From: Pseudomonadota bacterium | Lineage (GTDB): Bacteria > Pseudomonadota > Alphaproteobacteria > Rhizobiales > MH13 | Assembly (NCBI GenBank): GCA_039024915.1 | Contig: JBCCPK010000004.1 | Coordinates: 62,001-126,000 of the forward strand | DNA: 64,000 bases | Direction of reading: 5' to 3' | In this document: piece after piece, positions 9,878-35,821 of the stretch | Position numbering within the stretch: the first letter of the stretch is position 1 | How the letters are laid out: each line of letters opens with the position of its first letter | Made by a program: the position numbers and the translations under genes | Notes under the pieces: generated by a model | Seen by the model: only the letters and a program-made list of their open reading frames with translations | Told to the model about the DNA's origin: nothing | Databases searched by the model: none

Positions 9878-10639
9878 TCAGTGATTTGATCCGCTGGAGA
9901 GCACCAGGGTCGTGCGCTCTGCAGCAAACCAGGTGCGGCCATACTCAATTGGCCGCCCCTTCTCATCTACGTTGATGCCGATCGTACGGAGGACCGGCGA
10001 ACTGACCTGGATTCGCAGTTGTGTTGCCAGCGTTACGGACGCGAGCTTGCCATCAATTCGAGTTTCGCGGCGGATGAAATCCTGAATTCCTTCAGACTTC
10101 AGCGCAGCGGTCACCGAACTGTTCTCGCGCAAATTGCCCAGCAGTTTGGGAAAACGCTGCGCTGGAAAGATGCTTTGAAAGACGGCTAGTGGTTCTCCAT
10201 CGACAAGCGACAAGCCCTCACAAACATGAACTGAAGCGCCTAACTCCAGGTCGAGCGCGCTTGCCTCTTTTGAATCGCTGGCGCGTGTCTGAAGGAGCAG
10301 CACTTTTCGCTGTGGGGTTCGCCCGGCGGCGAGAATGTTCTGGTGAAATCGTACGCGACTGCCGATTGGATAATCGGTTTGCGCGTGGGTGACGAAAACG
10401 CCGGCGCCCCGTCGGCTGGATACAAAGCCACGGTCTGCGAGCGATGCGAGGGCGCGCCTCACCGTGTGCCTGTTCACGCTGAAACGGGCAGCAAGTTGCG
10501 CCTCTGTCGGCAGCTTTACACCCGGGCGGTAGCGCCCCGCGGCGATGTCCGATTCAAGGGCGTCGCTTATGCCAGTCCATAGGGCTTTACGGGCCAAGAC
10601 GTACTCCACTGATCGCGGCATACGCCATAGAAATTTCAT
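9878..10639 (-). CDS. phnF: PhnF-type GntR/HutC-family regulator of phosphonate genes
   Basis: This 253-residue regulator has an N-terminal winged helix (LWTGISDALESDIAAGRYRPG, LPTEAQLAARFSVNRHTVRRALASLADRGFVSSRRGAGVFV). A UTRA ligand-binding domain of the HutC subfamily follows (about residues 95-245, ending RPIEYGRTWFAAERTTLVL). It is divergent from phnG with 75 bases between the starts, the usual PhnF arrangement, so it probably represses the C-P lyase operon until a phosphonate-derived ligand appears. I use ATG 10639; a TTG at 10642 and an ATG at 10618 are other in-frame choices. Identification rests on domain plus position. Confidence 0.85.
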   Translation of the reverse strand: MKFLWRMPRSVEYVLARKALWTGISDALESDIAAGRYRPGVKLPTEAQLAARFSVNRHTVRRALASLADRGFVSSRRGAGVFVTHAQTDYPIGSRVRFHQNILAAGRTPQRKVLLLQTRASDSKEASALDLELGASVHVCEGLSLVDGEPLAVFQSIFPAQRFPKLLGNLRENSSVTAALKSEGIQDFIRRETRIDGKLASVTLATQLRIQVSSPVLRTIGINVDEKGRPIEYGRTWFAAERTTLVLSSGSNH

Positions 10640-10678
10640 CAAAGGCCGGTTGCGTCACGCATCGTATCCTGTAGAATT

Positions 10679-10714: not shown

Positions 10715-11173
10715 ATGTCGAAAAACGGACCACTTGATCGCAAAGCTCGGCTGTCCGTCCTTGCTCAGGCGCCGTCTGCTGACCTGAAAGCTCTGTGGCA
10801 GGTCTATACTGAGCGCAACGGCCAGCTAGCACATGAGGTTCTGCGGCCCCCCGAGATTGGTACCGTCATGGTGCGCGGGCGTGCAGGAGCGATTGGTGCA
10901 GCCTTTAATTTGGGCGAAATCACCGTCACGCGTTGCGCCGTAAAGACATCAACTGGGGCCGTTGGGCATGGCTACGTTCAAGGCCGCGACAAGGCAGCCT
11001 CGCTTGCCGCCGCATGTATTGACGCGCTTGCGCAAGGGGCATCACGAGCGGAGCTGGATCGCACGATCACCATACCTCTGTCGCAAGATATGCAGCGGCG
11101 GCAACAGCGCCGCGCGTCTAAAGCTGCGGGCACCAAGGTTGAGTTTTTCACAATGGTGCGGGGTGACGCATGA
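10715..11173 (+). CDS. phnG: C-P lyase core subunit PhnG
   Basis: PhnG is part of the PhnG2H2I2J2 core that forms alpha-D-ribose 1-phosphonate triphosphate and breaks the C-P bond. The 152-residue protein shows the family pattern: RKARLSVLAQAPSADLKALW at the N-terminus, PEIGTVMVRGRAGAIGAAFN, then GEITVTRCAVKT and GHGYVQGRDKAAS. The name is secured by its place directly before phnH-I-J. The start ATG lies close behind the candidate PhnF operator. It overlaps phnH by 4 bp (ATGA) and so opens a chain of translationally coupled genes. Confidence 0.93.
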   Translation: MSKNGPLDRKARLSVLAQAPSADLKALWQVYTERNGQLAHEVLRPPEIGTVMVRGRAGAIGAAFNLGEITVTRCAVKTSTGAVGHGYVQGRDKAASLAAACIDALAQGASRAELDRTITIPLSQDMQRRQQRRASKAAGTKVEFFTMVRGDA

Positions 11174-11748
11174 CGTCCGATCAACAATCCTTTGCCGGTG
11201 GCTTCGCGAGTCCGGCCCATGACAGTGCGCGCGCCTTCCGATCCATCATGAACGCGATGGCGAGACCGGGCTCTATTGAACCACTTTTGGGTGGCCAGCC
11301 TCCCACGCCCGTGTCGGTTGCAGCGGGTACATTGATCCTGACCCTCTGCGATCCCGATACGTCGATTGCCTTAAAGGGCGAGCATGACACCGTGTCGGTT
11401 CGAAACTGGATCACGTTTCACACCAGTGCGCCATTTGCGGCGGAGGGAGAGGCTGACTTTGTTCTCGGAACTTGGGAGGCGATCGTACCTCTGGCGCCTT
11501 ACAAGGTCGGCACCGCGGAGTATCCTGACCGTTCGGCCACTCTCATAGTAGAGCAAGCGGAGCTTGCGGCGGCGGGTGCTGTTCTGCGCGGACCAGGCAT
11601 CAAGACCCAAGCGTCTTTGAATCTGCCCGATGCGGTCGCCTTGGAAGCAAACCATGCGCAATTCCCACTTGGTTTGGACTGCTTCTTCTGCGCTGCCGAC
11701 AAGGTGGCAGCCTTACCGCGTTCGACGCGATGCGAGGAGGCTGCCTGA
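11170..11748 (+). CDS. phnH: C-P lyase core subunit PhnH
   Basis: PhnH is an essential C-P lyase core protein with a PLP-transferase-like fold but no PLP. The 192-residue protein shows typical phrases: FAGGFASPAHDSARAFRSIM and NAMARPGSIEPL near the N-terminus, LILTLCDPDTSIAL, NWITFHTSAPFA, and LRGPGIKTQ in the last third (the LxGPGI motif of the family). Length is as in E. coli (194). It starts within the end of phnG and its stop shares one base with the start of phnI (TGATG). Confidence 0.93.
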   Translation: MTSDQQSFAGGFASPAHDSARAFRSIMNAMARPGSIEPLLGGQPPTPVSVAAGTLILTLCDPDTSIALKGEHDTVSVRNWITFHTSAPFAAEGEADFVLGTWEAIVPLAPYKVGTAEYPDRSATLIVEQAELAAAGAVLRGPGIKTQASLNLPDAVALEANHAQFPLGLDCFFCAADKVAALPRSTRCEEAA

Positions 11749-12890
11749 TGTATGTCGCCGTCAAAGGGGGGGAGCGTGCGATTGAGGCCGCCCACAATTG
11801 GTTGGCAGAGGAGCGACGCGGCGATACCTCCGTTGCTGACCTTTCTGTGGCGCAAATCCGTGAGCAGCTTGCTCTGGCCGTCGCGCGGGTCATGGCGGAG
11901 GGCTCACTGTTCGATCCTGATCTCGCTGCCTTGGCGATCAAGCAGGCTCGTGGCGATCTGATCGAAGCGGTGTTTTTGATCCGCGCGTTTCGCACAACGC
12001 TACCCCGCTTTGGAGCGTCGTTGCCGATTGATACCGGCGTCATGCAATGTGACCGGCGGATTTCAGCAACGTTTAAAGATCTTCCGGGTGGACAGGTGTT
12101 GGGGCCGACGTTCGATTACACCCACAGGCTGATCGATTTCGCCCTTGAGGCCACCGGTGATGCTACCGGTGAAACAGCCGACCAGCCAACGCCTTTCGAC
12201 CCGCCGCCGAGTGTCGATGTGGAGCGCACTCCTGTGCCTCATGTGGCTGACTTTCTCGATCAGGAAGGGTTACTCCAACCGGAGGTGGCGAGCGATGAGA
12301 CACCTAGCGACCTGACGCGCGAGCCGTTGGACTTTCCCGCCGACCGGTCTCTTCGTCTTCAAGCAATCACGCGGGGTGATGAGGGGTTCGTGTTATCCAT
12401 GGCCTACTCAACCCAACGTGGATACGGGCGCAATCACCCCTTTGTCGGGGAGCTGCGCGTTGGGACGGTGCCCGTTGAAATAGACATTCCCGAGCTTGGT
12501 TTTGCGATTGAGGTCGGCGAAATAGAGATCACCGAGTGCGAGACGGTCAATCAGTTTACCGGTTCCAAGGCAGAGCCACCGCAGTTCACGCGCGGCTACG
12601 GTCTTGTCCTTGGGCACTGCGAGCGCAAGGCCATATCCATGGCGCTGGTTGATCGGGCGATGCGCTGGGAGGAGTTGGGGGAAGACAATGTCGGCGCCCC
12701 CGCGCAGGACGTCGAGTTCATGCTTAGCCACGCTGATAATGTGCAAGCGACCGGATTTCTCGAGCACATCAAGTTGCCCCACTATGTGGACTTCCAATCG
12801 GAGCTGGAATTGATCCGCAAACTCCGCGCCGAGGCCCGGCTAGCATGCGCGGAGGAGGGCGCTGCGCCGCTCCAGGAGGCGGCAGAATGA
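11748..12890 (+). CDS. phnI: C-P lyase core subunit PhnI
   Basis: PhnI is the nucleosidase subunit that swaps the adenine of MgATP for the phosphonate, giving the ribose 1-phosphonate triphosphate. The 380-residue protein begins MYVAVKGGERAIEAAHNWLA. It contains AFRTTLPRFG, RRISATFKDLPGGQVLGPTFDYTHRL, AITRGDEGFVLSMAYSTQRGYGRNHPF and GLVLGHCERKAISMALVDRA, all typical of the family. It is slightly longer than the E. coli protein (354). The start at 11748 overlaps the phnH stop; an in-frame ATG upstream at 11730 is less likely. The 3' end overlaps the next gene by ATGA. Confidence 0.94.
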   Translation: MYVAVKGGERAIEAAHNWLAEERRGDTSVADLSVAQIREQLALAVARVMAEGSLFDPDLAALAIKQARGDLIEAVFLIRAFRTTLPRFGASLPIDTGVMQCDRRISATFKDLPGGQVLGPTFDYTHRLIDFALEATGDATGETADQPTPFDPPPSVDVERTPVPHVADFLDQEGLLQPEVASDETPSDLTREPLDFPADRSLRLQAITRGDEGFVLSMAYSTQRGYGRNHPFVGELRVGTVPVEIDIPELGFAIEVGEIEITECETVNQFTGSKAEPPQFTRGYGLVLGHCERKAISMALVDRAMRWEELGEDNVGAPAQDVEFMLSHADNVQATGFLEHIKLPHYVDFQSELELIRKLRAEARLACAEEGAAPLQEAAE

Positions 12891-13489
12891 CCGCTCTTGT
12901 TTTTGATGTCGGCAAGGTCCTGCTTGAATGGGACCTCCACACACTTTTCGAGCCACTTCTCGGGAGCGAGCACAATGTGGATGCGTTTCTCGAGGAGACG
13001 GACTTTCACGCGTTCAACCTCGGGCTGGATGCAGGCAAGACTTTCGCGGACAGCCTCCCGCCTCTTATCGACCGCTTTCCCCATCACAAGAGCTCGTTCG
13101 AGCATTTTCGGGACGCGTGGACCGAATGTACGCCCGGGCCCATAGATGGGACAGCAGCGATTCTTGAGGATCTGAAGACGAAGGGGACGCCGCTGTACGC
13201 CATCACCAATTTCTCTGCGGAGAATTGGCCAAAGGCGTGTGCGAAGTTCCCATTTCTTGCGACCAGCTTTCGCGATGTGATCGTCTCTGGCGCGGTCAAA
13301 ATGCTTAAGCCGGATCCGGCGATTTACGAACTGCTGCTTACCCGAAACGGTCTCGATGCTGCGGACTGCCTTTTCATTGATGACTCACCCAAGAACGTTG
13401 CTGGTGCGCGTGCCGTGGGCATGCAAGCCATTCAATTCACAGGGCCGCATGCGCTGCGCGCGGCTCTTACGCATCGAGGTTTCCTATGA
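12887..13489 (+). CDS. HAD-family phosphatase inserted in the C-P lyase core operon
   Basis: This 200-residue protein is a HAD subfamily IA hydrolase. Motif I is VFDVGKVLLEWD, with Gly rather than Asp two residues after the nucleophile, as in YihX-type (glucose 1-phosphate phosphatase-like) members. Motif II is AITNFSAENW, motif III is VKMLKPDPAIY with the Lys, and motif IV is CLFIDDSPKNVAGARAVG. A helical cap lies between motifs I and II (about residues 15-85). It overlaps phnI and phnJ by 4 bp on both sides, so it is coupled into the core. A plausible job is dephosphorylation of a ribose phosphate intermediate or side product; this is inference. HAD proteins are not standard C-P lyase components. 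Confidence 0.85.
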   Translation: MTALVFDVGKVLLEWDLHTLFEPLLGSEHNVDAFLEETDFHAFNLGLDAGKTFADSLPPLIDRFPHHKSSFEHFRDAWTECTPGPIDGTAAILEDLKTKGTPLYAITNFSAENWPKACAKFPFLATSFRDVIVSGAVKMLKPDPAIYELLLTRNGLDAADCLFIDDSPKNVAGARAVGMQAIQFTGPHALRAALTHRGFL

Positions 13490-14358
13490 GCGACGCCGCT
13501 TACAATTTTGCCTATTTGGATGAACAAACCAAGCGGATGATTCGGCGGGCCATCCTGAAGGCCCTCGCAATTCCGGGCTACCAGGTGCCGTTTGCCAGCC
13601 GCGAAATGCCCATGCCCTATGGTTGGGGTACCGGTGGGGTGCAGGTCTCAGCAGCGGTGATGACGCCCGAGGACACCTTCAAGGTGATCGATCAGGGCGC
13701 CGACGATACGACCAACGCCGTGTCGATCCGCAAGTTCTTAGAGAAGACGGCCGACGTCGAAACAACCGAAAGCACCGCCGATGCGACCATCATCCAGACG
13801 CGCCACCGGATCCCCGAGAAGCATCTGAATGAAAACCAGATTCTTGTCTACCAGGTGCCGATCCCCGAACCGCTGCGCTTCTTGGAGCCGCGCGAAACCG
13901 AAACGCGGAAGATGCACGCGCTTGAAGAGTATGGGCTGATGCATGTGAAGCTTTACGAGGACATCGCAAAGCATGGCGAGATAGCCACAGCCTACGCCTA
14001 TCCGGTGAGGGTCGAGGACCGATATGTAATGGATCCCTCGCCCATACCGAAGTTCGACAACCCCAAGCTCGAAAGCGAAGCGATCCAGCTGTTCGGTGCT
14101 GGGCGTGAGCAGCGCATCTACGCCGTGCCGCCGCACACCAAAGTCGTGAGCCTCGACTTCGATGATTACCCTTTCGAGCTTCTACGCGCCGACCAGAGCT
14201 GTGCGCTTTGTGGGGCCGATCACACCTATCTGGATGAGGTCATAACGGACGATGCCGGTGGTCGCATGTTCGTGTGCTCGGATACCGACTTCTGCGCCGA
14301 GCGCCGCGCCGCTGGGCATACCGGTTCGGCAACCGAAGCCCAGGAGCAAGCAGCTTGA
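13486..14358 (+). CDS. phnJ: C-P lyase catalytic subunit PhnJ
   Basis: PhnJ is the radical-SAM enzyme that cleaves the carbon-phosphorus bond, releasing the alkane and ribose 1,2-cyclic phosphate 5-phosphate. The 290-residue protein begins YNFAYLDEQTKRMIRRAILKA. It contains PFASREMPMPYGWGTGG, QTRHRIPE and QILVYQVPIPEPLR. The iron-sulfur cysteines are visible near the C-terminus as CALC, then 21 residues, C, then 5 residues, C (FVCSDTDFC), the PhnJ-specific spacing. All four ligands are present, so the enzyme should be functional. Start and stop overlap both neighbours by 4 bp. Confidence 0.96.
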   Translation: MSDAAYNFAYLDEQTKRMIRRAILKALAIPGYQVPFASREMPMPYGWGTGGVQVSAAVMTPEDTFKVIDQGADDTTNAVSIRKFLEKTADVETTESTADATIIQTRHRIPEKHLNENQILVYQVPIPEPLRFLEPRETETRKMHALEEYGLMHVKLYEDIAKHGEIATAYAYPVRVEDRYVMDPSPIPKFDNPKLESEAIQLFGAGREQRIYAVPPHTKVVSLDFDDYPFELLRADQSCALCGADHTYLDEVITDDAGGRMFVCSDTDFCAERRAAGHTGSATEAQEQAA

Positions 14359-14927
14359 GTGAGACGGTCATCTTCCTGACCCATGGCGACGTGGAGATTG
14401 ACCCCACCGTTCCGGTCCCCCAATGGGGCCTAAACGCGCAAGGTCGCGCGCGCCATGAAGCCTTTGCGACGGATTCGGTTCTTGAAGATGTAACGTCCAT
14501 TTTCGCCAGCGATGAGCAGAAAGCCAAGGATGCTGCTCAACCGGTTGGCGTTGCGCGCGACCTACCGGTCCATATTCGACCGGCCATGGGCGAAAATGAT
14601 CGCAGCGCGACAGGTTTTCTGCCGCCCGATGCTTTCTGGCCCGTGGTGGAAGAATTCTTCGCCAATCCAGAGACCTCTGTTCGCGGCTGGGAAAGGGCGT
14701 GCGACGCGCAAGCCCGGATTGTTGAGGCTGTCGGCGCGGCATCGAAAGAAGCGCCCTATGGTGATGTTCTTGTCGTGGCCCATGGCGGCGTGGGCACGCT
14801 GCTGCGCTGCAAGCTCGCCGGGATTCCAATCACCCGCGACCAGGACCAAACGCATCCCAAAGGCGGCTGCTACTTCACCTTTGATCGCCGAAGCGGCGGG
14901 AATCTGACAGATTGGATCGCCATATGA
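14355..14927 (+). CDS. Divergent histidine-phosphatase-like protein in the C-P lyase operon
   Basis: This 190-residue protein has the outline of a histidine phosphatase (phosphoglycerate mutase-like): VIFLTHGDVEIDP at the N-terminus, FASDEQKAKDAAQPV (the position of the SxxxRAxQTA helix) and LVVAHGGVGTLL with the second active-site His. The usual RHG motif is THG, so the arginine that grips phosphate is absent while the nucleophilic His remains. The start is probably TTG at 14355 (LSETVIF), overlapping the phnJ stop as TTGA. The end overlaps phnK as ATGA. Related proteins occur in some alphaproteobacterial phn clusters, but I know no assigned reaction. It may bind or hydrolyse a sugar-phosphate intermediate. 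Confidence 0.8.
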   Translation: MSETVIFLTHGDVEIDPTVPVPQWGLNAQGRARHEAFATDSVLEDVTSIFASDEQKAKDAAQPVGVARDLPVHIRPAMGENDRSATGFLPPDAFWPVVEEFFANPETSVRGWERACDAQARIVEAVGAASKEAPYGDVLVVAHGGVGTLLRCKLAGIPITRDQDQTHPKGGCYFTFDRRSGGNLTDWIAI

Positions 14928-15694
14928 CCCCTCTGCTTGAGGTCGACAACCTCTCCAAATCCTATGGTGCCCGGGTTGGTTGCCGCGATGTGTCGTTCAA
15001 GCTCTATCCCGGCGAGGTGATGGGGATTGTCGGCGAGTCGGGCTCGGGGAAGTCCACCTTGCTTAACTGCATGGCCGGGCATCTGGCGCCGGACGTGGGG
15101 CGGATCGTTTTCGATACGCGGGTGGACGGCCCGCGCGATACACTTGCCATGGCTGAGCCTGAGAGACGCATGCTGGGCCGCACGGATTGGGCATTCGTAC
15201 ATCAGAATCCTCGGGATGGTTTGCGCATGCGGGTCTCCGCTGGCGGTAACGTCGGTGAGCGGCTGATGGCAGTGGGCGCACGACACTATGGCGCTATTCG
15301 TCAGACGGCTTCTGATTGGCTGGCCCGAGTCGAGATCGATACTGACCGCATGGACGATCGTCCGGCGCAGTTCTCTGGCGGGATGCAGCAGCGCCTTCAA
15401 ATCGCGCGCAACCTGGTTTCGCAGCCTCGCCTGATTTTCATGGATGAGCCGACGGGCGGCCTCGACGTTTCCGTTCAGGCGCGGTTGCTTGATCTTCTGC
15501 GGGGCCTTGTGAGGACCATGGGTTTGTCGGCCATCATCGTTACCCATGATCTTGCAGTAGTGCGCCTGCTCGCCGATCGGCTGATGGTGATGAAGGACGG
15601 TAACGTCGTCGAAACCGGGCTCACTGATCAGGTGCTCGATGACCCGCAGCACGCCTACACGCAGTTGCTCGTTTCCTCCGTCCTTCAGGTTTAG
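14924..15694 (+). CDS. phnK: C-P lyase ABC-type protein PhnK
   Basis: PhnK is a soluble ABC-ATPase-like protein that docks on the C-P lyase core; it is not part of a transporter. The 256-residue protein has Walker [10 protein letters not shown] (about residues 37-45), a Q-loop at [14 protein letters not shown], signature [15 protein letters not shown], Walker [16 protein letters not shown] and switch His in IIVTHDLAV. The HQNPRDGLR stretch is typical of PhnK. The ATG at 14924 overlaps the previous stop (ATGA). phnL follows after 8 bases. Confidence 0.93.
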
Positions 15695-15702
15695 GGAAAG
15701 CC

Positions 15703-16395
15703 ATGATTACGGTCCGCAATCTCAGCAAGAGCTTCACCCTTCACCATCAGCGCGGTACGACCATTCCCGTTCTGGCCGGTTGCTCCTTCGAGGTGAACCC
15801 CGGTGAATGTGTCGCCCTGACTGGTGTGTCGGGCGCCGGCAAGTCAACCGTTATGCGCATTCTGTATGGAAATTATCTGGCCGAGGCTGGACGTGTGGTC
15901 ATTGGCGGGCTTGATATCACGCGTGCCGAGCCGCGTGAGGTTTTGGCTTTGCGCAGAACGACACTGGGCTATGTCAGCCAATTCTTGCGTGTTGTCCCTA
16001 GGGTTCCAGCGCTTGAGGTCGTGGCCGAGCCGCTCCTAGCGGTCGGCGAGGAGGACGAGCATGCACGGTCGCGAGCGCGCTTGCTGTTGTCCCGTCTCGC
16101 CATCCCCGAACGCTTGTGGGAGCTGTCGCCAACCACCTTCTCCGGCGGCGAGCAGCAGCGCGTAAACATCGCCCGTGGTTTCGCCCACAAATATCCTGCC
16201 TTGCTGCTGGACGAGCCGACCGCCAGTCTCGATGCCAAAAACAGGGATACGGTGCTCTCGTTGATCGAGGAAGCCAAGGCCGATGGTGCGGCCATTGTTG
16301 GGATCTTTCATGATTTGGAGGCCCGCGCGCGCGTCGCAGACCGGGAGGTTGATATATCCGACTTTACACCAAAGGCCGAACACCTTGCTGCATAG
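15703..16395 (+). CDS. phnL: C-P lyase ABC-type protein PhnL
   Basis: PhnL is the second ABC-type protein of C-P lyase; it joins the PhnK-core complex. The 230-residue protein has Walker [30 protein letters not shown] (family-specific Q-loop stretch), signature [15 protein letters not shown] and Walker [16 protein letters not shown]. The switch His is in [10 protein letters not shown]-terminal [17 protein letters not shown] is also PhnL-like. An AAAGCC ribosome site lies just before the ATG. Confidence 0.93.
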
Positions 16396-16407: not shown

Positions 16408-16986
16408 TTGATCTATCCATCTGCGCACACTGGCCGCTTCATCGCGGTGGTTGGACCTTCGGGCGTGGGCAAGGACAGCGTCATGAATGGGTTGCTCGCT
16501 GCCGAGCCCCGCTATGTCAGATGTCGGCGGGTTATAACCCGACCGGAAGACGCTGGTGGCGAGGATTTTGAAGGTGTCAGCGAAGCGGAGTTCAAGGCGC
16601 GGGTCGACCGCGGCTATTTCGCGCTTTGGTGGCGCGCGCACGGCCTCGCCTATGGAATTCCCGCTGCCAGTACAAACGATGCACTCGAAGCCGGGATGGA
16701 CGTGCTTGCGAACCTGTCTCGCGCTATCGTGCACGAGGCCTGGTCTGTATTTCCCACCCTGACGGTTCTATCGATTACCGCACCGGTTGAGGTGCTTGAA
16801 AAGCGGTTGGAACGCCGCGGCCGCGAGGACGAAGACGATATTGCAGCGCGGTTGGCCCGTCCGATACGGGCGTTGCCGCAAGGCGTACCTTTGATCAGTA
16901 TCGATAATTCGGGCGATCTCGACGGAAGCGTTCGGGAGGCAAGAATGGCTTTGGCGCGCCGCTTGTCTCACGCGGCAAGTGTATAG
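16408..16986 (+). CDS. phnN: Ribose 1,5-bisphosphate phosphokinase PhnN
   Basis: PhnN phosphorylates ribose 1,5-bisphosphate to PRPP and so returns the C-P lyase ribose scaffold to nucleotide metabolism. The 192-residue protein has P-loop VVGPSGVGKDSVM near the N-terminus, RRVITRPEDAGGEDFEGVSE, YFALWWRAHGLAYGIP, and RRGREDEDDIAARLAR, as in guanylate-kinase-like PhnN proteins. The start is probably TTG at 16408, 12 bases after phnL; no ATG or GTG is better placed. The last 19 bases overlap the convergent DUF1045 gene. Confidence 0.9.
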   Translation: MIYPSAHTGRFIAVVGPSGVGKDSVMNGLLAAEPRYVRCRRVITRPEDAGGEDFEGVSEAEFKARVDRGYFALWWRAHGLAYGIPAASTNDALEAGMDVLANLSRAIVHEAWSVFPTLTVLSITAPVEVLEKRLERRGREDEDDIAARLARPIRALPQGVPLISIDNSGDLDGSVREARMALARRLSHAASV

Positions 16987-17654
16987 GCCTCAATCTCGTG
17001 GAAATGCCCGTCGACGTCTTCTCCCATCAAGCTGATCGTTCGCAGAATGAAGGGTTCCGGCATATCGGAGCACAGATATCTCTGCAGCCGTTCAGCGAGA
17101 TCGTGCGACGTCTCCTCGTCGAGTTGACCCGACAACGTCATGTGAAAGCGAAACTCGTCCATCACGTATGGATAGCCCCAGCGCAAAAGTTGTTCTTCCT
17201 GCCGATCGGTCAACTTGCTTGCGCGTCGCTTGGCAAGCTCTGCTCCATTCAAGGGCGCGCGGAACGCATCAAAGTCGCGCACCACTCGTTCGCAAAGCTG
17301 ATCGAGCGCGGGGCAAGACCCCTCCGGGACGAGCGCGACGAAGCCGTTCATCGGGCGGACGACCATCCGACTGATGGCGACGCTCTGCATCGTTGGCAGA
17401 CGTTCTTGGCACGCCCTCAGAAGCTGCTGCCTGCTTTGTCCTTCGATAAGTCTGAACGGAGGTTTCAACGTACCATGGAAGCCGTATTTTCGAGGTGTTG
17501 CGGTGGCCTGCGCTATGTCATAGCGCAAACCCTCAAGAACCGGATGATCGACCTTGTGTCCCAACCGGGAATCCCATCCCAACCATTGCGACGCAATTGT
17601 GTGCAGCGGCTCTTCTGCCATCGCGTACAGGGCATAGCGACGGAATACGGTCAT
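16968..17654 (-). CDS. DUF1045 2H phosphoesterase of phosphonate metabolism
   Basis: This 228-residue protein has the two HxT/S motifs of 2H phosphoesterases: YGFHGTLKPPF (about residue 62) and FRFHMTLSG (about residue 178). DUF1045 genes are regularly found in phn loci. 2H enzymes open cyclic phosphates. Because no phnP-type metallo-beta-lactamase gene is present in the locus, this protein is a good candidate to open 5-phosphoribosyl 1,2-cyclic phosphate before PhnN acts. The ATG at 17654 follows GGGGAGAGG on the minus strand; an ATG at 17699 lacks such a site. The end overlaps phnN by 19 bp, and the gene is divergent from phnM. Confidence 0.85.
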   Translation of the reverse strand: MTVFRRYALYAMAEEPLHTIASQWLGWDSRLGHKVDHPVLEGLRYDIAQATATPRKYGFHGTLKPPFRLIEGQSRQQLLRACQERLPTMQSVAISRMVVRPMNGFVALVPEGSCPALDQLCERVVRDFDAFRAPLNGAELAKRRASKLTDRQEEQLLRWGYPYVMDEFRFHMTLSGQLDEETSHDLAERLQRYLCSDMPEPFILRTISLMGEDVDGHFHEIEAYTLAA

Positions 17655-17716
17655 TTGCCTCTCCCCAATCCGACTGGCGTAAGGCCATCGGTCTCTCACA
17701 CCTCAAAGACAGGTCC

Positions 17717-18880
17717 ATGACACAGCTTTCTGACGGATCAACTACCGTTCTGGCCAATGCGCGACTGGTATTGGAAAATGAGGTTGTGCGCGGTTCCTTG
17801 AGCTTTACCGATGGCGTCCTGACAGCGACGGATGCCGGTACCGCTGTCCCTGCTGGCGCGATCGATTGTGAAGGTGACTTTGTGGCGCCGGGTCTCGTTG
17901 AATTGCATACCGATAACTTGGAGCGACACCTCTCACCGCGCCCTGGCGTGGCGTGGCCCCACAACGCGGCCATTGTCGCACACGACGCGGAGTTGGCCTC
18001 AACTGGCATCACCACGGTGTTCGACGCGGTGCGGCTGGGTTTCATTGAGCATTCAGGTACCAACAGTGTGATGGAACCCTATGCACGCCCTATGGTCAGT
18101 GAGATCCTAATGGCGCGATCCCATGGGCTCCTGAAGATCTCCCACCATATTCATCTGCGCGCCGAAATTTGTTCCCACTCGCTTGCTGATGAACTTGAGC
18201 AATTCAGGGAAGATGACCGCATCGGTATCATCTCGTTGATGGATCACACACCCGGCCAAAGGCAGTTTGCCGATATCACCCAGTACGAGAAATACATGCG
18301 TGGCAAGCACGGGCTCAGTCAGGCCGAGTTTGATGCCCATGTGGTGGAGCGGAAGGAGCTGCGAGAGCGCGTGCACGCAAAGCATGAGGCTGCCGCTGTA
18401 ACCGCCGCAGAAGCTTTTGGCGCGGTGCTCGCAAGCCATGATGATACGACCCATGAGCACGTCGAAACCTCAGCTGGGTTTGGGATCAAACTCGCGGAGT
18501 TCCCGACGACGATTGGCGCCGCCCACGCCTGCCACAAGCATGGGATCGCCATCATGATGGGTGCGCCCAATCTGGTGCGTGGGGGCTCGCATTCGGGTAA
18601 CGTCGCCGCTCATACTCTAGCAGAACACGACCTGCTCGATATCGTATCCTCCGACTATGTGCCGTCTGCGCTGCTCTATTCGGCCATCAAGCTTTCGCAG
18701 ATCTGGGATGATTTGCCTCGCGCGATTGCAACGGTAACGGCTGCACCTGCGGCTGCCACCCGGTTGACTGATCGGGGGGCACTGAAAGTTGGCAAGCGTG
18801 CGGATGTTATCCGCTTTGCGTTGGCCGATGACGTGCCCATCCTACGCGGCGTCTGGAGCAATGGCCGTCAGGTCGCCTGA
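17717..18880 (+). CDS. phnM: Alpha-D-ribose 1-methylphosphonate 5-triphosphate diphosphatase PhnM
   Basis: PhnM removes pyrophosphate from the ribose 1-phosphonate 5-triphosphate made by PhnGHI, so that PhnJ can act. The 387-residue amidohydrolase-fold protein has GLVELHTDNLERH (metal motif), IISLMDHTPGQRQF, LASHDDTTHEHV, GAPNLVRGGSHSGNV and SSDYVPSALLYS. These phrases match the phosphonate PhnM family. The ATG at 17717 starts 62 bases from the divergent DUF1045 start. The frame is open farther upstream, but that part is antisense to DUF1045. A second PhnM-like gene lies 0.9 kb downstream on the other strand. Confidence 0.92.
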   Translation: MTQLSDGSTTVLANARLVLENEVVRGSLSFTDGVLTATDAGTAVPAGAIDCEGDFVAPGLVELHTDNLERHLSPRPGVAWPHNAAIVAHDAELASTGITTVFDAVRLGFIEHSGTNSVMEPYARPMVSEILMARSHGLLKISHHIHLRAEICSHSLADELEQFREDDRIGIISLMDHTPGQRQFADITQYEKYMRGKHGLSQAEFDAHVVERKELRERVHAKHEAAAVTAAEAFGAVLASHDDTTHEHVETSAGFGIKLAEFPTTIGAAHACHKHGIAIMMGAPNLVRGGSHSGNVAAHTLAEHDLLDIVSSDYVPSALLYSAIKLSQIWDDLPRAIATVTAAPAAATRLTDRGALKVGKRADVIRFALADDVPILRGVWSNGRQVA

Positions 18881-18915: not shown

Positions 18916-19764
18916 TTACCGAGCGAGACCTTCGCGTTCCAGGTACCCAATCGCGGCGGGTATGTCGGCCGAGTGGCGCAGCTCCAGCACCAGATGTGGC
19001 GCTTGTTCGGTGCCAATCTGAGGCAGTTTTGCCAAAGCACGGAAGACCGCGTGCCATTGGATTGTTCCTTGACCGGGCGCCCAGTGGCGATCGGCTACGC
19101 CGTCGGCGTCTTGGAGGTGTACATGGGCGAGCTGATCACCGGCATCGGCCACGAAGTAGTCCACTGGAGGCGCGCCAGTAACGCCATGGGCATAATGGGC
19201 ATGCCCGGTATCGATCGATAGGCGAACGTTGGGGCTGTTGAAGCTCTCAACCAACTCGCGTCGATCGCGTGGGTCAACATCTTCAATGTTCTCAATGACC
19301 AATGTCACGCCCTCTGAGTGCGCGCGTTTGACCACATCACCCAGAACGGCATGAACCTTTTCGATGGTCTCGTGCCGGGTGGTTGGTGCATCGCCTCGCG
19401 GCGGATAGTTCCACTTGTTGAAGTGGTCCCAGGTCGTGAAAGGTGAGTGAAGGACCATCTGCGCCGCACCAAGGGCCGCGCAAATGTCGACGCCGGTCAG
19501 CAACCGCTTCGTGATCAGCGGGCGAAACTCGGGATCATCGCAATCAAGTGGCAGGTACCAGAAAGGTCCATGGATACCCAAACGACCGGTGTATCCATCG
19601 AGCGCTTGTTTGATCCTCAGGACATGGCTGTGCCAGTCACCCAGGATCAGTTCGGTGTTGTAGAAGTCTTGAACCTCCAAATCGCGATCACCATCGATCA
19701 GCCAGTCCTTAAAGGTCGGAAGGTCCTTCAAGGTTAGTGCTGCACCGATCGAAAGTGGAAGCAT
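18916..19764 (-). CDS. TIM-barrel sugar isomerase/epimerase-family protein
   Basis: This 282-residue protein belongs to the AP endonuclease 2/xylose isomerase-like TIM-barrel family. Likely metal ligands follow the family order: VIENIEDVD (Glu), LSIDTGHAHY (Asp, His), HVHLQDADG (His, Asp) and LVLELRH (Glu). Also typical are GIHGPFWYLP and VLHSPFTTWD. Such proteins isomerise or epimerise sugars and sugar phosphates. It is 10 bases downstream of the phnM-like gene and probably co-transcribed, suggesting a role in processing the ribosyl product of phosphonate degradation or a sugar-linked phosphonate. The substrate is unknown, and this family is not a standard C-P lyase component. Confidence 0.8.
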   Translation of the reverse strand: MLPLSIGAALTLKDLPTFKDWLIDGDRDLEVQDFYNTELILGDWHSHVLRIKQALDGYTGRLGIHGPFWYLPLDCDDPEFRPLITKRLLTGVDICAALGAAQMVLHSPFTTWDHFNKWNYPPRGDAPTTRHETIEKVHAVLGDVVKRAHSEGVTLVIENIEDVDPRDRRELVESFNSPNVRLSIDTGHAHYAHGVTGAPPVDYFVADAGDQLAHVHLQDADGVADRHWAPGQGTIQWHAVFRALAKLPQIGTEQAPHLVLELRHSADIPAAIGYLEREGLAR

Positions 19765-19774
19765 CCGGTTTCTC

Positions 19775-20971
19775 CTAAAAGACCTTCACGCCAGCGCGCC
19801 AAACGCCGCAGACAATAGGTTGTCTATCATGCAGGCGTACCTGTACCAAGTCAGCTCGCAAGCCCTCTGCCAGCCGTCCCCGGTCGTGAAGACCCGCTAT
19901 GCCCGCCGGCGCCGATGTGACCATCGCAATGGCTTGCGGTAGATCGATGGGCAAATCCTGATCAGCGGCGATAGCGAAGGCGCAGTCGAGTGGGCTGCGC
20001 GGCACATAGTCGGAGGCCAACGCATCCACCACCCCCGCTTCCAGCAGCGTTCGAACTGCCACGTTGCCTGACTGAGACCCACCACGAAGGAAGTTCGGTG
20101 CACCGGCGATCGTTTTCAGACCGAGCGCCTTCGCACGCTTGGCGGCGACAAGCGTCGTTGGAAACTCGGAAACAGTGACGCCTTCCCGGTCAGCTTGATC
20201 GACGTGGACGACGGACCGATCATCATGACTCATGATTGGCACTGCTGCAGCCGTGGCGTGGGCAATGATTGCGGCTCGGTTCTCGGCTCCAGTGCGGGCT
20301 GACCGATCAAACAGTTCGTCGAGCCTCGCACGACCGTCCTCTGGGGTGATTTCCATCTCGTGGATCATGTGATGGAACCAGCGCTCGACATCGGGACTTT
20401 GGCGGTCGCCCGGCGTATGGTCCATAACCGAAACAAGCTTCGCCAGGGGATGCATAAGCGCATCCCGTGCCAAGCCGGGCGTATCTGGGTCGGAGATTTC
20501 GCACCGCAAGTGTACGAAGTGCTCTGCCCGGAAAAGCCCTGCTGCCTGCCCTCGATCAAGAGCATCAATCAGGGGCTTGAGAATCTCGCCCCGCTCAGGT
20601 CGTTTCATGGTGGCGCCGACGCACAGGCTGTCGAACACGGTCGTTGTTCCACCCGAAATGACCACCGCGTCGTGCGTTAGTAGTGCGGGCAGGAAGGGCC
20701 AGAGGACAGCCGCCCGCGGATGGACGTGGGTTTCGACATGGTCGGTGTGCACGTCAACGATGCCGGGTACGAGATAATCGCCCTCCAGATCCATAACAGT
20801 ATCTAGATGGCGGTCGCCACCAAGCCCTGCGATCAAACCGGCTTCGACGCGCAAGCTTCCCCTCTCGATTCCATCGGCGAGCACAAGCCGCGCATTGTCG
20901 AAGCGCACATCCTGTTTTGCTGACAGACCGGCAATGGATGGAGACGTTTGGTTGTTCGGGCGATCAAGCAT
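19775..20971 (-). CDS. Second PhnM-like amidohydrolase
   Basis: This 398-residue protein is a paralogue of the PhnM at 17717. It shares IVDVHTDHVETHVHPR (metal site), KLVSVMDHTPGDRQSP, PIMSHDDRSVVHV, AGAPNFLRGGSQSGNV and ASDYVPRSPLDCA. The ligand motifs are intact, so it should be active. It has an N-terminal extension (about 20 residues) and differs where PhnM has LERH and GKHGLSQ. It may hydrolyse a different ribosyl phosphonate triphosphate or be the isoform used under another condition. It heads a two-gene minus-strand operon with the TIM-barrel gene and is divergent from the hexapeptide transferase gene. A candidate Pho box lies 68 to 85 bases before its start. Confidence 0.88.
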   Translation of the reverse strand: MLDRPNNQTSPSIAGLSAKQDVRFDNARLVLADGIERGSLRVEAGLIAGLGGDRHLDTVMDLEGDYLVPGIVDVHTDHVETHVHPRAAVLWPFLPALLTHDAVVISGGTTTVFDSLCVGATMKRPERGEILKPLIDALDRGQAAGLFRAEHFVHLRCEISDPDTPGLARDALMHPLAKLVSVMDHTPGDRQSPDVERWFHHMIHEMEITPEDGRARLDELFDRSARTGAENRAAIIAHATAAAVPIMSHDDRSVVHVDQADREGVTVSEFPTTLVAAKRAKALGLKTIAGAPNFLRGGSQSGNVAVRTLLEAGVVDALASDYVPRSPLDCAFAIAADQDLPIDLPQAIAMVTSAPAGIAGLHDRGRLAEGLRADLVQVRLHDRQPIVCGVWRAGVKVF

Positions 20972-25967: not shown

Positions 25968-26966
25968 TCAGCTGGAATGGCTGATCGAAACGGGTATTTG
26001 CTTGTCTTTCGAGAGCTGGGCTGCATCGGCAAGCATCTGCGCGCGCAGACCATCATGGATTGAAGGGGATGGAGTTGCGCCAGAAGCGACGGCCTGAATG
26101 AAGTGTTCCATCTCCAGTGCATAAGCTCGAGCGTAGCGTTCTAGGAAGAAATACTCCGTGGGTGCGGACTGGAAACCCTCCGAATTGGCCAGTACGACCG
26201 CGTGAGAGAGCTGGTTTTCACCCTTGATAAGGCCTTTTGAGCCGTGAACCTCAATGCGCTGATCATAACCGTACGTCGCGCGCCGTGAGTTTGAAATTTG
26301 GCAAAGTTTCCCCGAAGCTGTCTCAAGACTGACAACGGCTGTGTCGACATCATGAGCGCCACCGATAGCGGGATCAACGACGCTGGAGCCAAAGGCAAAC
26401 ACGCGTGTTGGCTCTTCACCGAGGAGGAAGCGCGCCATATCGAAATCGTGCACCATCATGTCCCGGAACAGGCCACCTGACTGCTCGATGTAGCTAATTG
26501 GAGGCGGTGAGGGGTCTCGCGATAGAATAGTGACCAGCTCAACATCGCCGATGACGTCATCGCGAACCTGCTTTTGCAAGCTTGCAAAGCTTGGATCGAA
26601 GCGGCGATTGAACGCTGTCATGAAAGGAACGCCAGCGCTTTCGACAGCTTCGATGCAGGCCAGCGTCCGCTCCGTTGAAAGATCAATCGGCTTCTCGCAA
26701 AAGATCGCTTTGCCAGCGGCGGCTGCCTGATGGATCAGATCGAAATGGGTTGTCGTTGGTGCACAGATGGCGACGGCATCGACGTCGTCGCTTGTGATGA
26801 GTTCCTCCGAGGGCATAACGCGCGCGTCGTAGGTCTCGGCGACCGCATGAGCTGCCTCCGGAAGGGCGTCACTCACAGCCACGAGACGTGTACCTTGCGC
26901 GGCAGCGATCGTCATGGCGTGTACCCGACCAATTCGGCCGCACCCCAACAATCCAATCCTAAGCAT
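25968..26966 (-). CDS. iolG: Inositol 2-dehydrogenase IolG
   Basis: IolG oxidises myo-inositol to 2-keto-myo-inositol with NAD, the first catabolic step. The 332-residue Gfo/Idh/MocA protein has the Rossmann motif IGLLGCGRIGRVHAM, AVAICAPTTTHFDLI and the catalytic EKP Lys in FCEKPIDLS. It also has FNRRFDPSF and the active-site stretch GGLFRDMMVHDFDMARF. IolG-like wording is strong across the protein. It is the last gene of the minus-strand operon iolD-phyH-iolC-iolB-iolJ-iolG and overlaps iolJ by 8 bp. Confidence 0.9.
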   Translation of the reverse strand: MLRIGLLGCGRIGRVHAMTIAAAQGTRLVAVSDALPEAAHAVAETYDARVMPSEELITSDDVDAVAICAPTTTHFDLIHQAAAAGKAIFCEKPIDLSTERTLACIEAVESAGVPFMTAFNRRFDPSFASLQKQVRDDVIGDVELVTILSRDPSPPPISYIEQSGGLFRDMMVHDFDMARFLLGEEPTRVFAFGSSVVDPAIGGAHDVDTAVVSLETASGKLCQISNSRRATYGYDQRIEVHGSKGLIKGENQLSHAVVLANSEGFQSAPTEYFFLERYARAYALEMEHFIQAVASGATPSPSIHDGLRAQMLADAAQLSKDKQIPVSISHSS

Positions 26967-27810
26967 GCAGACCTCTTGAGGCAGCCGGTTTCAAGGCGTG
27001 AATCACCGTTCGCGCAGCTCGTTCAACGGGATCGTGCGTCTCCTTCAAAATTTGGACGCGATCAAACCTGTCAGGTTGTCCGTTGACAGCTGTTCGTAAG
27101 GCTTGGCCGAACGCCATTCGCAATTCGGTGCCGATGTTGAATTTGCAGATGTTGGAGGTACGCGCGAGCATCGTCCTCTGGTCGACGGGAACGCCGGACC
27201 CCCCATGTATAACGAGCGGAGTGTTGGTGAGCGCCTCGATTGCGCGGATGCGGGGTTCATCCAGTCCGCCCTTTTTGTCCTGCTGCAAATGCACGTTGCC
27301 TACCGATATGGCGACCGCGTCGACGTGGGTTTCGCGTGCAAACTCAGCGGCTTCCTCGGCCTTCGTACCCGCAGACTCTTCGCCTCCATCATAGCCCACA
27401 AAACCGATCTCGCCTTCGCAGGATATGCCAGCCTGATGTGCCAGTTCGGCAATTTGGGCGGTTTGCTCGATGTTTTGTGACAAGGGGCAGCGCGAGCCAT
27501 CAAACATGAGACTTGTGAAGCCGCTGTCTCGCGCTTCAACACACTCTTGCATGGTATAGCCATGGTCGAGATGCACGACCACCGGGACGGATGCTCGCTC
27601 CGCCAGATGACGCATCATTTTTCCCAAGACCGGCAAGGGCGTATGCTCGCGGCAACTCGGACCTGCCTGCAGGATAATTGGCGCTTGCTCGGCCTCGGCA
27701 GCCTCAACATAAGCCTGCATGTCCTCCCAACCGAGGCATACAAGTCCAGCTACGGCATAGCCGCCCTTTAGGGCAGGCTGCAGAACCTCAGAGAGGGTCG
27801 CAACGGTCAT
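26959..27810 (-). CDS. iolJ: IolJ-type class II aldolase
   Basis: IolJ splits 2-deoxy-5-keto-gluconate 6-phosphate into DHAP and malonate semialdehyde, the product step of inositol catabolism. The 283-residue class II aldolase has zinc-site motifs VVVHLDHGYT, SCEGEIGFVGYDGG, ISVGNVHLQQ and LVIHGGSGVP, and FNIGTELRMAF near the C-terminus. The ATG at 27810 (MTVATLSEVL) overlaps the iolB stop as ATGA; the frame upstream is antisense-like filler within iolB. Many alphaproteobacteria lack IolJ because IolC carries a fused DUF2090 domain; here IolC is unfused. Confidence 0.85.
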   Translation of the reverse strand: MTVATLSEVLQPALKGGYAVAGLVCLGWEDMQAYVEAAEAEQAPIILQAGPSCREHTPLPVLGKMMRHLAERASVPVVVHLDHGYTMQECVEARDSGFTSLMFDGSRCPLSQNIEQTAQIAELAHQAGISCEGEIGFVGYDGGEESAGTKAEEAAEFARETHVDAVAISVGNVHLQQDKKGGLDEPRIRAIEALTNTPLVIHGGSGVPVDQRTMLARTSNICKFNIGTELRMAFGQALRTAVNGQPDRFDRVQILKETHDPVERAARTVIHALKPAASRGLHA

Positions 27811-28664
27811 TTGAACTTGGCGACCATGTCCATGATGCCAGGGATCGTGTGCAGCTGCTCGGCATGTGTCGGTTGAAAGAACTGCTTGAGGGATCGCTGC
27901 GAAAGGCCCCCTAGTATCGTGAAGTAGTACATCTCGTAGCCAGGGAGCACCGCGCATGGATGATATCCGCGGTCGAGGCAGATCGTTGACCCATCCATGA
28001 TGTGGTAGGCGTCTCCCGGCTCGTTGTCGGCACGCTGCAGCATCTGGACCCCCGAGCCATAGTTTGGACGGAAGCGGAAATTGTAGGTTTCGTCGTGCCG
28101 CGTCTCGATGATGTCACCATCGTCGCCAGCGCGATCGGTATCGTGCTTGTGGCTGGGAAAGCCTGACCATCCGCCCTGGCCAACGGTATAGAGTTCGCTG
28201 ACGAGCAGGCGGCCGACGCGGTCATGATACTCCGACCCAAGAATGTGTTTAATTTTTCGATGGGTCTTTGTGTCGTCAGAGCCGTATTGAACCAGATCGA
28301 GCTGGTGGCTGCGGACTTCGAACGGCTCGAGTACCTCGCTAAATTTGGCACCGGCAATAAAGACCTCTGCGGAATCTGAAACGCAGGATAGGCGCGCTTC
28401 GCTGCCCGATGGCACATAAACGCCCTCCGGTTCGCCATCCCAAACATCGATCACCCGGTTTCCGATTGCCTTGGCTTCAAAGCCGCCAACTGTAACGTCG
28501 ATCGTACCAGTCGCCGGCACGACGCAGGTTTCGTAACCGGGAACAGCGTAGCCGAAACTCTCGCCTTTTTTGAGCTTTATGATGTTGAAGTAGTTGAGCG
28601 GCACCACTTCGTTGTCTGCGTCCACGATCGGCTTGTTTTGGTTATCATGGGGCGGAATATGCAT
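27807..28664 (-). CDS. iolB: 5-deoxy-glucuronate isomerase IolB
   Basis: IolB converts 5-deoxy-D-glucuronate to 2-deoxy-5-keto-D-gluconate in inositol catabolism. The 285-residue bicupin has the family phrases LKKGESFGYAVPGYETCVV, VPSGSEARLSCVSD, SGFPSHKHDTDR (metal-binding His cluster), ETYNFRFRPNYGSGVQML and RGYHPCAVLPGYEMYYF. The length matches the family. It lies between iolC (30 bases upstream) and iolJ (4-bp overlap). Confidence 0.93.
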   Translation of the reverse strand: MHIPPHDNQNKPIVDADNEVVPLNYFNIIKLKKGESFGYAVPGYETCVVPATGTIDVTVGGFEAKAIGNRVIDVWDGEPEGVYVPSGSEARLSCVSDSAEVFIAGAKFSEVLEPFEVRSHQLDLVQYGSDDTKTHRKIKHILGSEYHDRVGRLLVSELYTVGQGGWSGFPSHKHDTDRAGDDGDIIETRHDETYNFRFRPNYGSGVQMLQRADNEPGDAYHIMDGSTICLDRGYHPCAVLPGYEMYYFTILGGLSQRSLKQFFQPTHAEQLHTIPGIMDMVAKFK

Positions 28665-28694
28665 GGCGCGTCCTTTCGGCGTTTGGGCCGCTTG

Positions 28695-29681
28695 TTATTG
28701 TTGTGTGGGGCCCGAATGCGAGTTGAGGAAACTCTCAAGTTCACCGCTGGTGGGCATTGCGGGAGCGCAGGCGGGCTTTGACACGGTGATCGATGCACAG
28801 GCGGAGCCACGCAGCAGAGCACCCCTAAGTGCTTGGCCATCGGCCAGAGATGCCATCAGGCCAGCCATGAAGCTGTCGCCAGCGCCCTCGGGCTTCAGCG
28901 CGTCGACCGGATAGATGCCGGTTCGGATTTCTTCACCGGCAGCGAGGGTGACCGCGCCCTTTTCGCCCATCTTATAGACAACAAGGCTCGCGCTGCTCGC
29001 GGCAAGCTCCCGGGCCTTGTCGAGGCCCTTGTCATAGCCGCCGGCCATGAAGCCGAACTCAACATCATTGCCCACGATGACGTTCGACATCGCTCCGGCG
29101 CGGGAAAGAACGTCGGCCGCCACATCGGGAGATGGCCACGAATAGGGGCGGTAATCGATATCGAAAATGATCGGCAAGCCTGCCGTCCTGGCCAACTCGA
29201 AAGCCTTGAACGTGGCGGTGCGCGACGGTTCCGCCGCAAAGACTGTTCCCGCCGTGATCAAGGCTGCGTACCCAGCGTAATCGACGGCTTCGACGTCTTC
29301 GGTTGACAGGGCGAAATCCGCCGCCCCGTTGCGGTAGATCACGGTCTGGTGGTTCTCGATCGTGCTCTCGTACACCGCCAAGGATGAGCGCGCTTCCCCA
29401 CCGACTGGCGTGACGTATTGGGTGCCGACGCCATAACGCTTGAGTTGGCCAACGCAGTATCGCCCGATAGAATCGTCGGATACGCGTGTGACGAGATCGG
29501 CAGCGCCTCCGAGTTTGACGATACCTGCTGCGATGTTGGCGGAGGACCCGCCCATCGCAACCACTGCGCGTTGCATGTCTTCGGTCCGCGTACCGGGCGG
29601 GTCGGCAACCACGTCCATCCCAACACGTCCGACGACAATGAAGCGCTTGGCGGCCAATGAGGTCAGCAAAGCCTCGAGCAC
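28695..29681 (-). CDS. iolC: 5-dehydro-2-deoxygluconokinase IolC
   Basis: IolC phosphorylates 2-deoxy-5-keto-gluconate at C6. The 328-residue PfkB kinase has VVGRVGMDVVADPPG, MGGSSANIAAGIVKLGG, FDIDYRPYSW, YKMGEKGAVTL and the anion hole/catalytic motif LKPEGAGDSFMAGLMASL. It lacks the extra C-terminal DUF2090 aldolase-like domain (about 300 residues) fused to IolC in many rhizobia, and the separate IolJ fits this. It starts 2 bases after the dioxygenase stop, implying translational coupling. Confidence 0.92.
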   Translation of the reverse strand: MLEALLTSLAAKRFIVVGRVGMDVVADPPGTRTEDMQRAVVAMGGSSANIAAGIVKLGGAADLVTRVSDDSIGRYCVGQLKRYGVGTQYVTPVGGEARSSLAVYESTIENHQTVIYRNGAADFALSTEDVEAVDYAGYAALITAGTVFAAEPSRTATFKAFELARTAGLPIIFDIDYRPYSWPSPDVAADVLSRAGAMSNVIVGNDVEFGFMAGGYDKGLDKARELAASSASLVVYKMGEKGAVTLAAGEEIRTGIYPVDALKPEGAGDSFMAGLMASLADGQALRGALLRGSACASITVSKPACAPAMPTSGELESFLNSHSGPTQQ

Positions 29682-29683
29682 CT

Positions 29684-32416: not shown

Positions 32417-32510
32417 GCGCCTCTCCCGGAACTGCACAGTTTCTTATTGGTCCCACGATCAGTGCGGACGCGATTGCCCATTGACCAGGAGACCTGCGAA
32501 CGATACCGAT

Positions 32511-32528
32511 TTTGCAACCGGTTGCAAA
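32511..32528. promoter_or_regulatory. Palindromic operator in the iolD divergent promoter
   Basis: TTTGCAACCGGTTGCAAA is a perfect 18-bp palindrome with CG at its centre, the classic LacI-family operator form. It lies in the 184 bases between the divergent iolD and IolG-like genes. A near copy occurs at 36955. The LacI-type regulator at 35822-36823 is the likely binder. Confidence 0.8.
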
Positions 32529-32600
32529 TTGTTTTTCTTGCCCGCCGGTCTCGCAAACAACAAGAACACGCCGTTCAGGCGGGATGATCGGAGAAACGCC

Positions 32601-34639: not shown

Positions 34640-34650
34640 GGGCCTGGACG

Positions 34651-35808: not shown

Positions 35809-35821
35809 AGCCTTAGGCAAC

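Follow-up and report, generated by a model that had tools for sequence, protein, structure and literature searches.

Carbon-phosphorus (C-P) lyase is a main route of phosphonate use and of aerobic methane release, and the fate of the phosphorus after C-P cleavage is known from Escherichia coli (PhnP and PhnN). The phnCDEFGHIJKLMNOP operon of this bacterium is the reference for the locus described here, which lies in a stretch of 64,000 nucleotides, hereafter the window, from an alphaproteobacterium of the Rhizobiales (contig JBCCPK010000004.1, positions 62,001 to 126,000). By family profile matches, we found a complete phnGHIJKLM set in the window, that is, a C-P lyase operon, with the gene of a HAD phosphatase placed between phnI and phnJ and that of a histidine-phosphatase-superfamily protein (HisP) between phnJ and phnK. 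The HAD gene recurs in this slot in other alphaproteobacterial operons and is probably a genuine, though optional, member of the C-P lyase pathway.

Among described systems, the Rhodobacteraceae cluster B3_TF_MPn_2 has, like the window, a full phnGHIJKLM core, phnF, phnCDE and a 2H phosphoesterase gene (rcsF/DUF1045), and it also shares a hexapeptide transferase and a second phnM-like gene with the window; however, the accessible text of its description names no HAD and no histidine phosphatase, whereas the window has both within the core genes (PMC3840354). In the literature searched, part of it accessible only as partial text, no report places a HAD between phnI and phnJ, a mention in reviews or supplements being still possible, and no paper brings C-P lyase, phnJ and histidine phosphatase together.

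The genes of the window on which the analysis draws are the following.

9878..10642, minus strand, phnF, GntR-family regulator (TIGR02325, 209 bits, above cut-off)
10715..11173, plus strand, phnG (TIGR03293, 148 bits, above cut-off)
11170..11748, plus strand, phnH (TIGR03292, 147.6 bits, above cut-off)
11748..12890, plus strand, phnI (PF05861, 540 bits)
12887..13489, plus strand, accessory HAD subfamily IA phosphatase (PF13419, TIGR01509)
13486..14358, plus strand, phnJ, C-P lyase (PF06007, 481 bits)
14355..14927, plus strand, HisP, with a TTG start (PF00300, 54.8 bits)
14924..15694, plus strand, phnK (TIGR02323, 393 bits, above cut-off)
15703..16395, plus strand, phnL (TIGR02324, 315 bits, above cut-off)
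16408..16986, plus strand, phnN, ribose 1,5-bisphosphokinase (TIGR02322, 175 bits, above cut-off)
16968..17654, minus strand, DUF1045 2H-phosphoesterase-type protein, proposed stand-in for PhnP (PF06299, 179 bits; TIGR03223, 239 bits, narrowly below its cut-off of 249)
17714..18880, plus strand, phnM (TIGR02318, 439 bits, above cut-off)

An earlier note on this stretch had read seven genes in the order phnG-phnH-phnI-HAD-phnJ-HisP-phnK, joined by overlaps of 1 or 4 bp, with the HAD splitting phnI from phnJ and HisP splitting phnJ from phnK. Open reading frames and profile matches across 10715-15694 bear out both the order and the two placements: five of the six junctions overlap by 4 bp and the remaining one, phnH/phnI, by 1 bp, and gaps of 8 and 12 bp follow at phnK/phnL and phnL/phnN. 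The cluster also contains the hexapeptide transferase gene, phnD, phnC and two phnE genes.

Recurrence and history of the HAD gene between phnI and phnJ

By searching 256 genomes of a Rhodobacteraceae-like family (f25, which holds the Gemmobacter and Qingshengfaniella alkalisoli contigs; like all our genome samples, an uneven one), we found phnJ in 124 genomes, 31 of which have a HAD between phnI and phnJ. HAD matches as such occur in 208 of the 256 genomes, and 36 score at least 185 bits. Of these high scorers, 31 stand between phnI and phnJ, two are elsewhere in the phn locus and three are in genomes without phnJ, which gives 33/124 genomes with phnJ versus 3/132 without (Fisher p 8e-9, from hand counts and ignoring kinship). 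This gene-order search upholds the earlier claim that the HAD belongs with the C-P lyase operon.

We also compared gene positions by eye in an order sample of 297 genomes, 161 of them with phnJ (HAD matches to E 1e-15, HisP matches to 1e-12). In G641, a genome of another family than f25, a HAD match ends 6 bases ahead of the PhnJ match on the same strand; this HAD, assigned to the slot by position only, scores 192 bits, within the range of the slot HADs, which indicates that the profile score predicts place. Three species of the window's genus carry phnJ: G000 and G449 have the slot HAD, and G484 has its HAD elsewhere. In a scan of named genomes for relatives of the HAD, five of the best 80 of 280 loci show the order phnI-HAD-phnJ: a Devosiaceae metagenome-assembled genome (MAG), a record named Oceanobacillus, Filomicrobium, Gemmobacter and Neomegalonema. 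Three of the five are probably identical with genomes already counted in the samples, the Devosiaceae MAG with G449 and, both in f25, the Oceanobacillus-named record with G680 and Gemmobacter with G706. The records named Oceanobacillus (L163, WNWL01000004.1) and Nostoc CHAB 5836 (L214) carry alphaproteobacterial sequence, the former being a mislabelled genome and the latter a probable contaminant contig. A finished and annotated phn operon with the HAD (WP_240804551.1) in the slot is found on the Qingshengfaniella alkalisoli plasmid NZ_CP042265.1; of the two best HAD matches on plasmids, this one lies inside a phn operon and the other, in Paracoccus sp. SCSIO 75233, outside.

We then read 35 operons with a slot HAD, namely the 31 of f25, the window, its congener G449, Neomegalonema and the Filomicrobium MAG (G641 being additional, by position). 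The HAD overlaps both neighbours in 28 of the 35, which goes beyond chance, with 4-bp overlaps at phnI/HAD in 28 and at HAD/phnJ in 31. The script used for these calls chose, among in-frame starts, the one closest to the stop before it, a choice biased towards overlaps. Overlaps of the same kind, 1 bp and 4 bp, are annotated in RefSeq for Qingshengfaniella alkalisoli. The overlaps of the HAD with phnI and phnJ suggest translational coupling only.

The slot has been filled or vacated repeatedly, either by several recruitments or by several departures. A single origin of the slot HADs was rejected by the approximately unbiased (AU) test (p 1.9e-10 for one clade; of its 37 rows, two lie close to the operon but outside the slot). 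The HAD tree of 76 rows requires at least 7 changes of place with either root state, a root inside the operon being cheaper if gains cost more, and gains and departures are not separable on it. Either history favours a functional tie of the HAD to the operon, and neither is proven. On the PhnJ tree, the presence of the HAD is patchy, with 20 changes, at least 10 of which are forced by well-supported branches (some of the rows without HAD are loci known only with 1.5-kb flanks). The window, G449 and G484 are sister to G881 (support 98/88) among mostly f25 rows on the same tree, a placement that makes a Rhodobacteraceae-like donor of the window's phn operon probable. Despite this sister position of PhnJ, the window HAD shares only 41% identity with the HAD of G881, compared with 66% for the HAD of G449. 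As a separate observation, 14 f25 genomes carry a more distant PhnJ (370-389 bits versus about 465-494), 13 of them next to an ordinary PhnJ in the same genome, which marks a separate type of C-P lyase cluster.

Family, fold and active site of the HAD

The window HAD is a member of HAD superfamily subfamily IA by PF13419 and TIGR01509 (both above cut-off), by its motifs, by its structural model and by Foldseek. Its active site is intact throughout the slot HADs: the nucleophile Asp7, Thr107, Lys141 and Asp165 are present in 35/35 and Asp166 in 34/35, and the residue two past the nucleophile is Gly, not Asp, in 34/35. Two further residues mark the slot HADs, Phe40 (34/35) and Trp114 (35/35); of 95 other HADs compared, 62 have Thr, Ser or Pro at position 40 and 76 have Phe at position 114.

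The AlphaFold model of the window HAD (predicted local distance difference test, pLDDT, of 98) has 3cnh and YihX (8pno) as nearest folds. The predicted hydrolase 3cnh of Deinococcus radiodurans is the top solved-structure match both by fold (template modelling, TM, score 0.82) and by sequence (E 1.3e-8); it is itself uncharacterised, and we know of no link between it and phosphonates. YihX/HAD4, an alpha-D-glucose 1-phosphate phosphatase (8pno, 2b0c), shares the subfamily IA fold with the window HAD (TM 0.75-0.76), and its Lys and Asp-Asp motifs match in the alignment, the first motif falling outside the printed part. In the accessible text of PMC4251788, YihX favours alpha-glucose 1-phosphate 565-fold over glucose 6-phosphate in kcat/KM. 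Judged from the model and from sequence comparison, fold and family of the slot HAD point to YihX-like sugar 1-phosphate phosphatases. There is a precedent for a HAD with specificity for a pentose bisphosphate, the ribulose 1,5-bisphosphate phosphatase of halophilic archaea, which removes the 5-phosphate instead, according to the accessible part of PMC9700705; the window HAD scores 19.7 bits against that family (NF053830), whose cut-off is 330.

Relatives of the HAD also occur as orphans away from phn operons. In Shinella and Ensifer they are located among sugar-uptake and sugar-oxidation genes. Among the 75 orphan loci within the best 80 of 280, 37 have the HAD divergent to a gene for a PhnD-like binding protein, an arrangement also found in the window's genus (G484, G405). 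All five PhnD-like neighbours that were tested match PF12974, two of them coming from the named-genome scan and three from whole genomes.

The histidine-phosphatase-like gene and other neighbours

HisP is a member of branch 1 of the histidine phosphatase superfamily (PF00300, 54.8 bits for a cut-off of 21.7) that carries THG in place of the RHG motif, the arginine of which binds phosphate. Thr or Ser replaces this arginine in all 31 aligned members of its family, both His and the Glu are conserved in 31/31, and Lys stands at the expected position of the second Arg in all motif strings printed (20 of 31). A close homologue is the uncharacterised superfamily protein Atu0299 (PDB 2qni, E 3e-39), with TH for RH in the alignment; in the literature searched it came up in a single paper, on methods. 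The match to the alpha-ribazole phosphatase CobC is weak (TIGR03162, 37.6 bits for a cut-off of 162.9; 6nru, E 9e-4), and HisP differs from it in lacking the RHG arginine.

The order phnI-HAD-phnJ-HisP-phnK was found once more, in genome G779, where HisP again overlaps each neighbour by 4 bp. The partial order phnJ-HisP-phnK is likewise limited to the window and G779 (1 of the 56 f25 phn loci examined), and the two phn-linked HisPs have one origin in 40% of bootstrap trees. In the order sample, HisP occurs in 59/297 genomes, mostly as an orphan, and beside phnJ in G000 alone. A HisP relative lies directly after phnD-phnC-phnE on a Paracoccus liaowanqingii plasmid. On plasmids of Ruegeria TM1040, two further Paracoccus, Microvirga and Sinorhizobium, we saw no C-P lyase or phnDCE genes around the HisP relatives in the stretches viewed; one of these relatives is near an annotated "PhnA-like protein" and one near phoX and pst genes. 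Of the operon link that the earlier note had drawn for both proteins, the part on the HAD stands, while that on HisP is thin, since among the phn loci seen it recurs only in G779. A link of HisP to phosphonates is plausible but weak. HisP would be a rarer passenger, and any activity it has would be directed at one of the pathway's phosphate esters, through a phosphate pocket that is altered.

Other genes also enter the internal phn junctions. VOC/glyoxalase-family genes (PF00903) sit between phnI and the HAD, as in the Filomicrobium operon, and between phnJ and phnK (L185 5766-6203; L299 11168-11626). By eye, we named DUF559-like reading frames at phnI/phnJ of three operons without HAD (L358, L361, L365), GNAT-like, PhnO-like genes at phnJ/phnK (L034, L037, L040, L058, L060) and a CorA-like transporter gene at phnK/phnL (L296, L299, L302, L306, L359, L361, L365, L369). 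Downstream in the window, a TIM-barrel protein gene (AP_endonuc_2) adjoins a second phnM on the minus strand (18916-20971). This pair also flanks the phn clusters of G881 and G908, and the TIM-barrel gene is near the phn cluster of G923 and the second cluster of G022 (L320, L375, L373 and L259 for these four genomes together). Genes that resemble, by eye, an inositol-catabolism cluster adjoin the phn cluster at 25968-36823.

Candidate roles of the HAD in the C-P lyase pathway

After PhnJ, the pathway runs from a 1,2-cyclic phosphate to ribose 1,5-bisphosphate and on to phosphoribosyl pyrophosphate (PRPP), as given in the accessible text of PMC10574752, and DUF1045 has been proposed to open the cyclic phosphate (accessible parts of PMC8235418 and PMC10574752). 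We found PhnP above the TIGR03307 cut-off of 272 in none of 60 genomes, the window's included; all 60 have weak matches, of 69.5 bits at most. DUF1045 is present in 54/54 genomes tested, and phnN is kept in 27 of the 28 HAD-bearing loci that have phnM, so that no known step appears to be missing for the HAD to fill. A HAD replacing DUF1045 or PhnP was accordingly rejected on the first of these two counts, and a HAD replacing PhnN on the second. The idea of a replacement of DUF1045 or PhnP had come from a post hoc comparison, in which DUF1045 lies within the locus in 15/27 HAD-bearing versus 21/25 HAD-less loci (p 0.037, likewise ignoring kinship). The ribosyl triphosphate and the cyclic phosphate, which the earlier note had offered as substrates, are less likely, since phnM is kept in the loci and DUF1045 occurs wherever it was tested.

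From these data we infer a role for the HAD as an active and optional phosphatase for an alpha-configured ribosyl 1-phosphate downstream of PhnJ, most likely ribose 1,5-bisphosphate, and put the probability of this reading, built on sequence and a predicted structure, at roughly 0.4. The HAD would be translated in step with phnI and phnJ. DUF1045 would open the 1,2-cyclic phosphate to give alpha-D-ribose 1,5-bisphosphate, from which the HAD would cleave the 1-phosphate, yielding ribose 5-phosphate and inorganic phosphate. This branch would run beside PhnN and free the phosphorus of the phosphonate directly, with no ATP spent. A stronger version, in which a HAD recruited several times independently to the slot in many alphaproteobacterial operons dephosphorylates ribose 1,5-bisphosphate, so that phosphate is freed instead of being locked into PRPP through PhnN, is possible but doubtful.

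Several observations weigh against this role. No HAD match (E 1e-20) is in the slot in 93 of the 124 f25 genomes with phnJ, 25 of these loci having been read directly and the rest judged by HAD positions compared by eye. In a class sample of 385 genomes, of which 65 by row count carry phnJ, the window's included, neither a HAD at phnI/phnJ nor a HisP at phnJ/phnK was seen in the 65 other phnJ loci (30 loci read with 1.5-kb flanks only), and in the order sample a HAD is beside phnJ, by position, in just 3 of the 161 genomes with phnJ (G000, G449 and G641). The HAD family is common as an orphan (137/297 genomes of the order sample), some orphans adjoin unrelated genes (mutY in Sinorhizobium, a TRAP transporter in Paracoccus), and the adjacency to PhnD-like genes comes mostly from one family, Stappiaceae (32/37). 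Since internal phn junctions also take unrelated genes, position alone proves little. Since PhnN is retained, it and a ribose 1,5-bisphosphatase would be rivals for a single substrate. Finally, the window HAD is only about 20% identical to YihX and scores 52.2 bits against NF006991, far below its cut-off of 295, which leaves a likeness in fold alone.

We know of no HAD of this subfamily that hydrolyses a phosphonate ester, and sugar-phosphate phosphatases are nearer relatives of the slot HAD. The HAD could alternatively be a repair enzyme that clears ribosyl phosphonate esters, or phosphorylated by-products on which PhnJ is unable to act, and would then protect the core complex instead of supplying the pathway. 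The HAD gene adjoins phnJ, and the same junctions admit further accessory genes (VOC family, PF00903), but we consider this role rather unlikely. The accessory and patchy distribution of the HAD would suit such a role, being like that of PhnO, an optional detoxifier acting on aminoalkylphosphonates in the accessible text of PMC10574752. The abundance of orphan HADs, the DUF559-like frames in three HAD-less junctions and the GNAT-, alpha/beta-hydrolase- and CorA-like genes at phnJ/phnK and phnK/phnL (all named by eye) could also mean that phnI/phnJ and phnJ/phnK are insertion-prone junctions where a common HAD has landed repeatedly with no role in the pathway. We consider this unlikely, as a single family fills the phnI/phnJ slot in 31 f25 genomes, usually with 4-bp overlaps on both sides and with its active site intact, and as high-scoring HADs are tied to phnJ.

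It is improbable that the HAD, and HisP with it, act on an imported substrate or another organophosphate and broaden the range of usable phosphorus sources. Orphan HADs beside PhnD-like binding proteins and the HisP relative behind phnD-phnC-phnE in Paracoccus liaowanqingii are in line with this idea, but for the two accessory genes looked at there is no clear association with the HAD (LbH in 22/27 loci with HAD versus 18/25 without; TIM in 1/27 versus 2/25). From the overlaps, the earlier note had deduced equal stoichiometry with the core complex; this goes beyond the translational coupling that they suggest and is countered both by the 93 f25 genomes with phnJ and no HAD match in the slot and by the functional Rhodobacteraceae cluster, in whose description no HAD is mentioned as far as its accessible text goes (PMC3840354). 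Overlaps with phnI and phnJ would also be expected of a non-catalytic subunit or assembly factor made in equal amount, which is very improbable: the catalytic residues are invariant in 35/35, no such HAD was found in most operons, and slot HADs diverge (35-67% identity in the pairs compared) while PhnJ of the same loci shares about 76-85% identity with the window PhnJ. The E. coli complex is moreover described without a HAD in the accessible text of PMC9947105.

In a family abundant in the sea, the recurrent phosphatase between phnI and phnJ is a testable candidate either for another outlet of phosphorus from the C-P lyase pathway or for a repair function.

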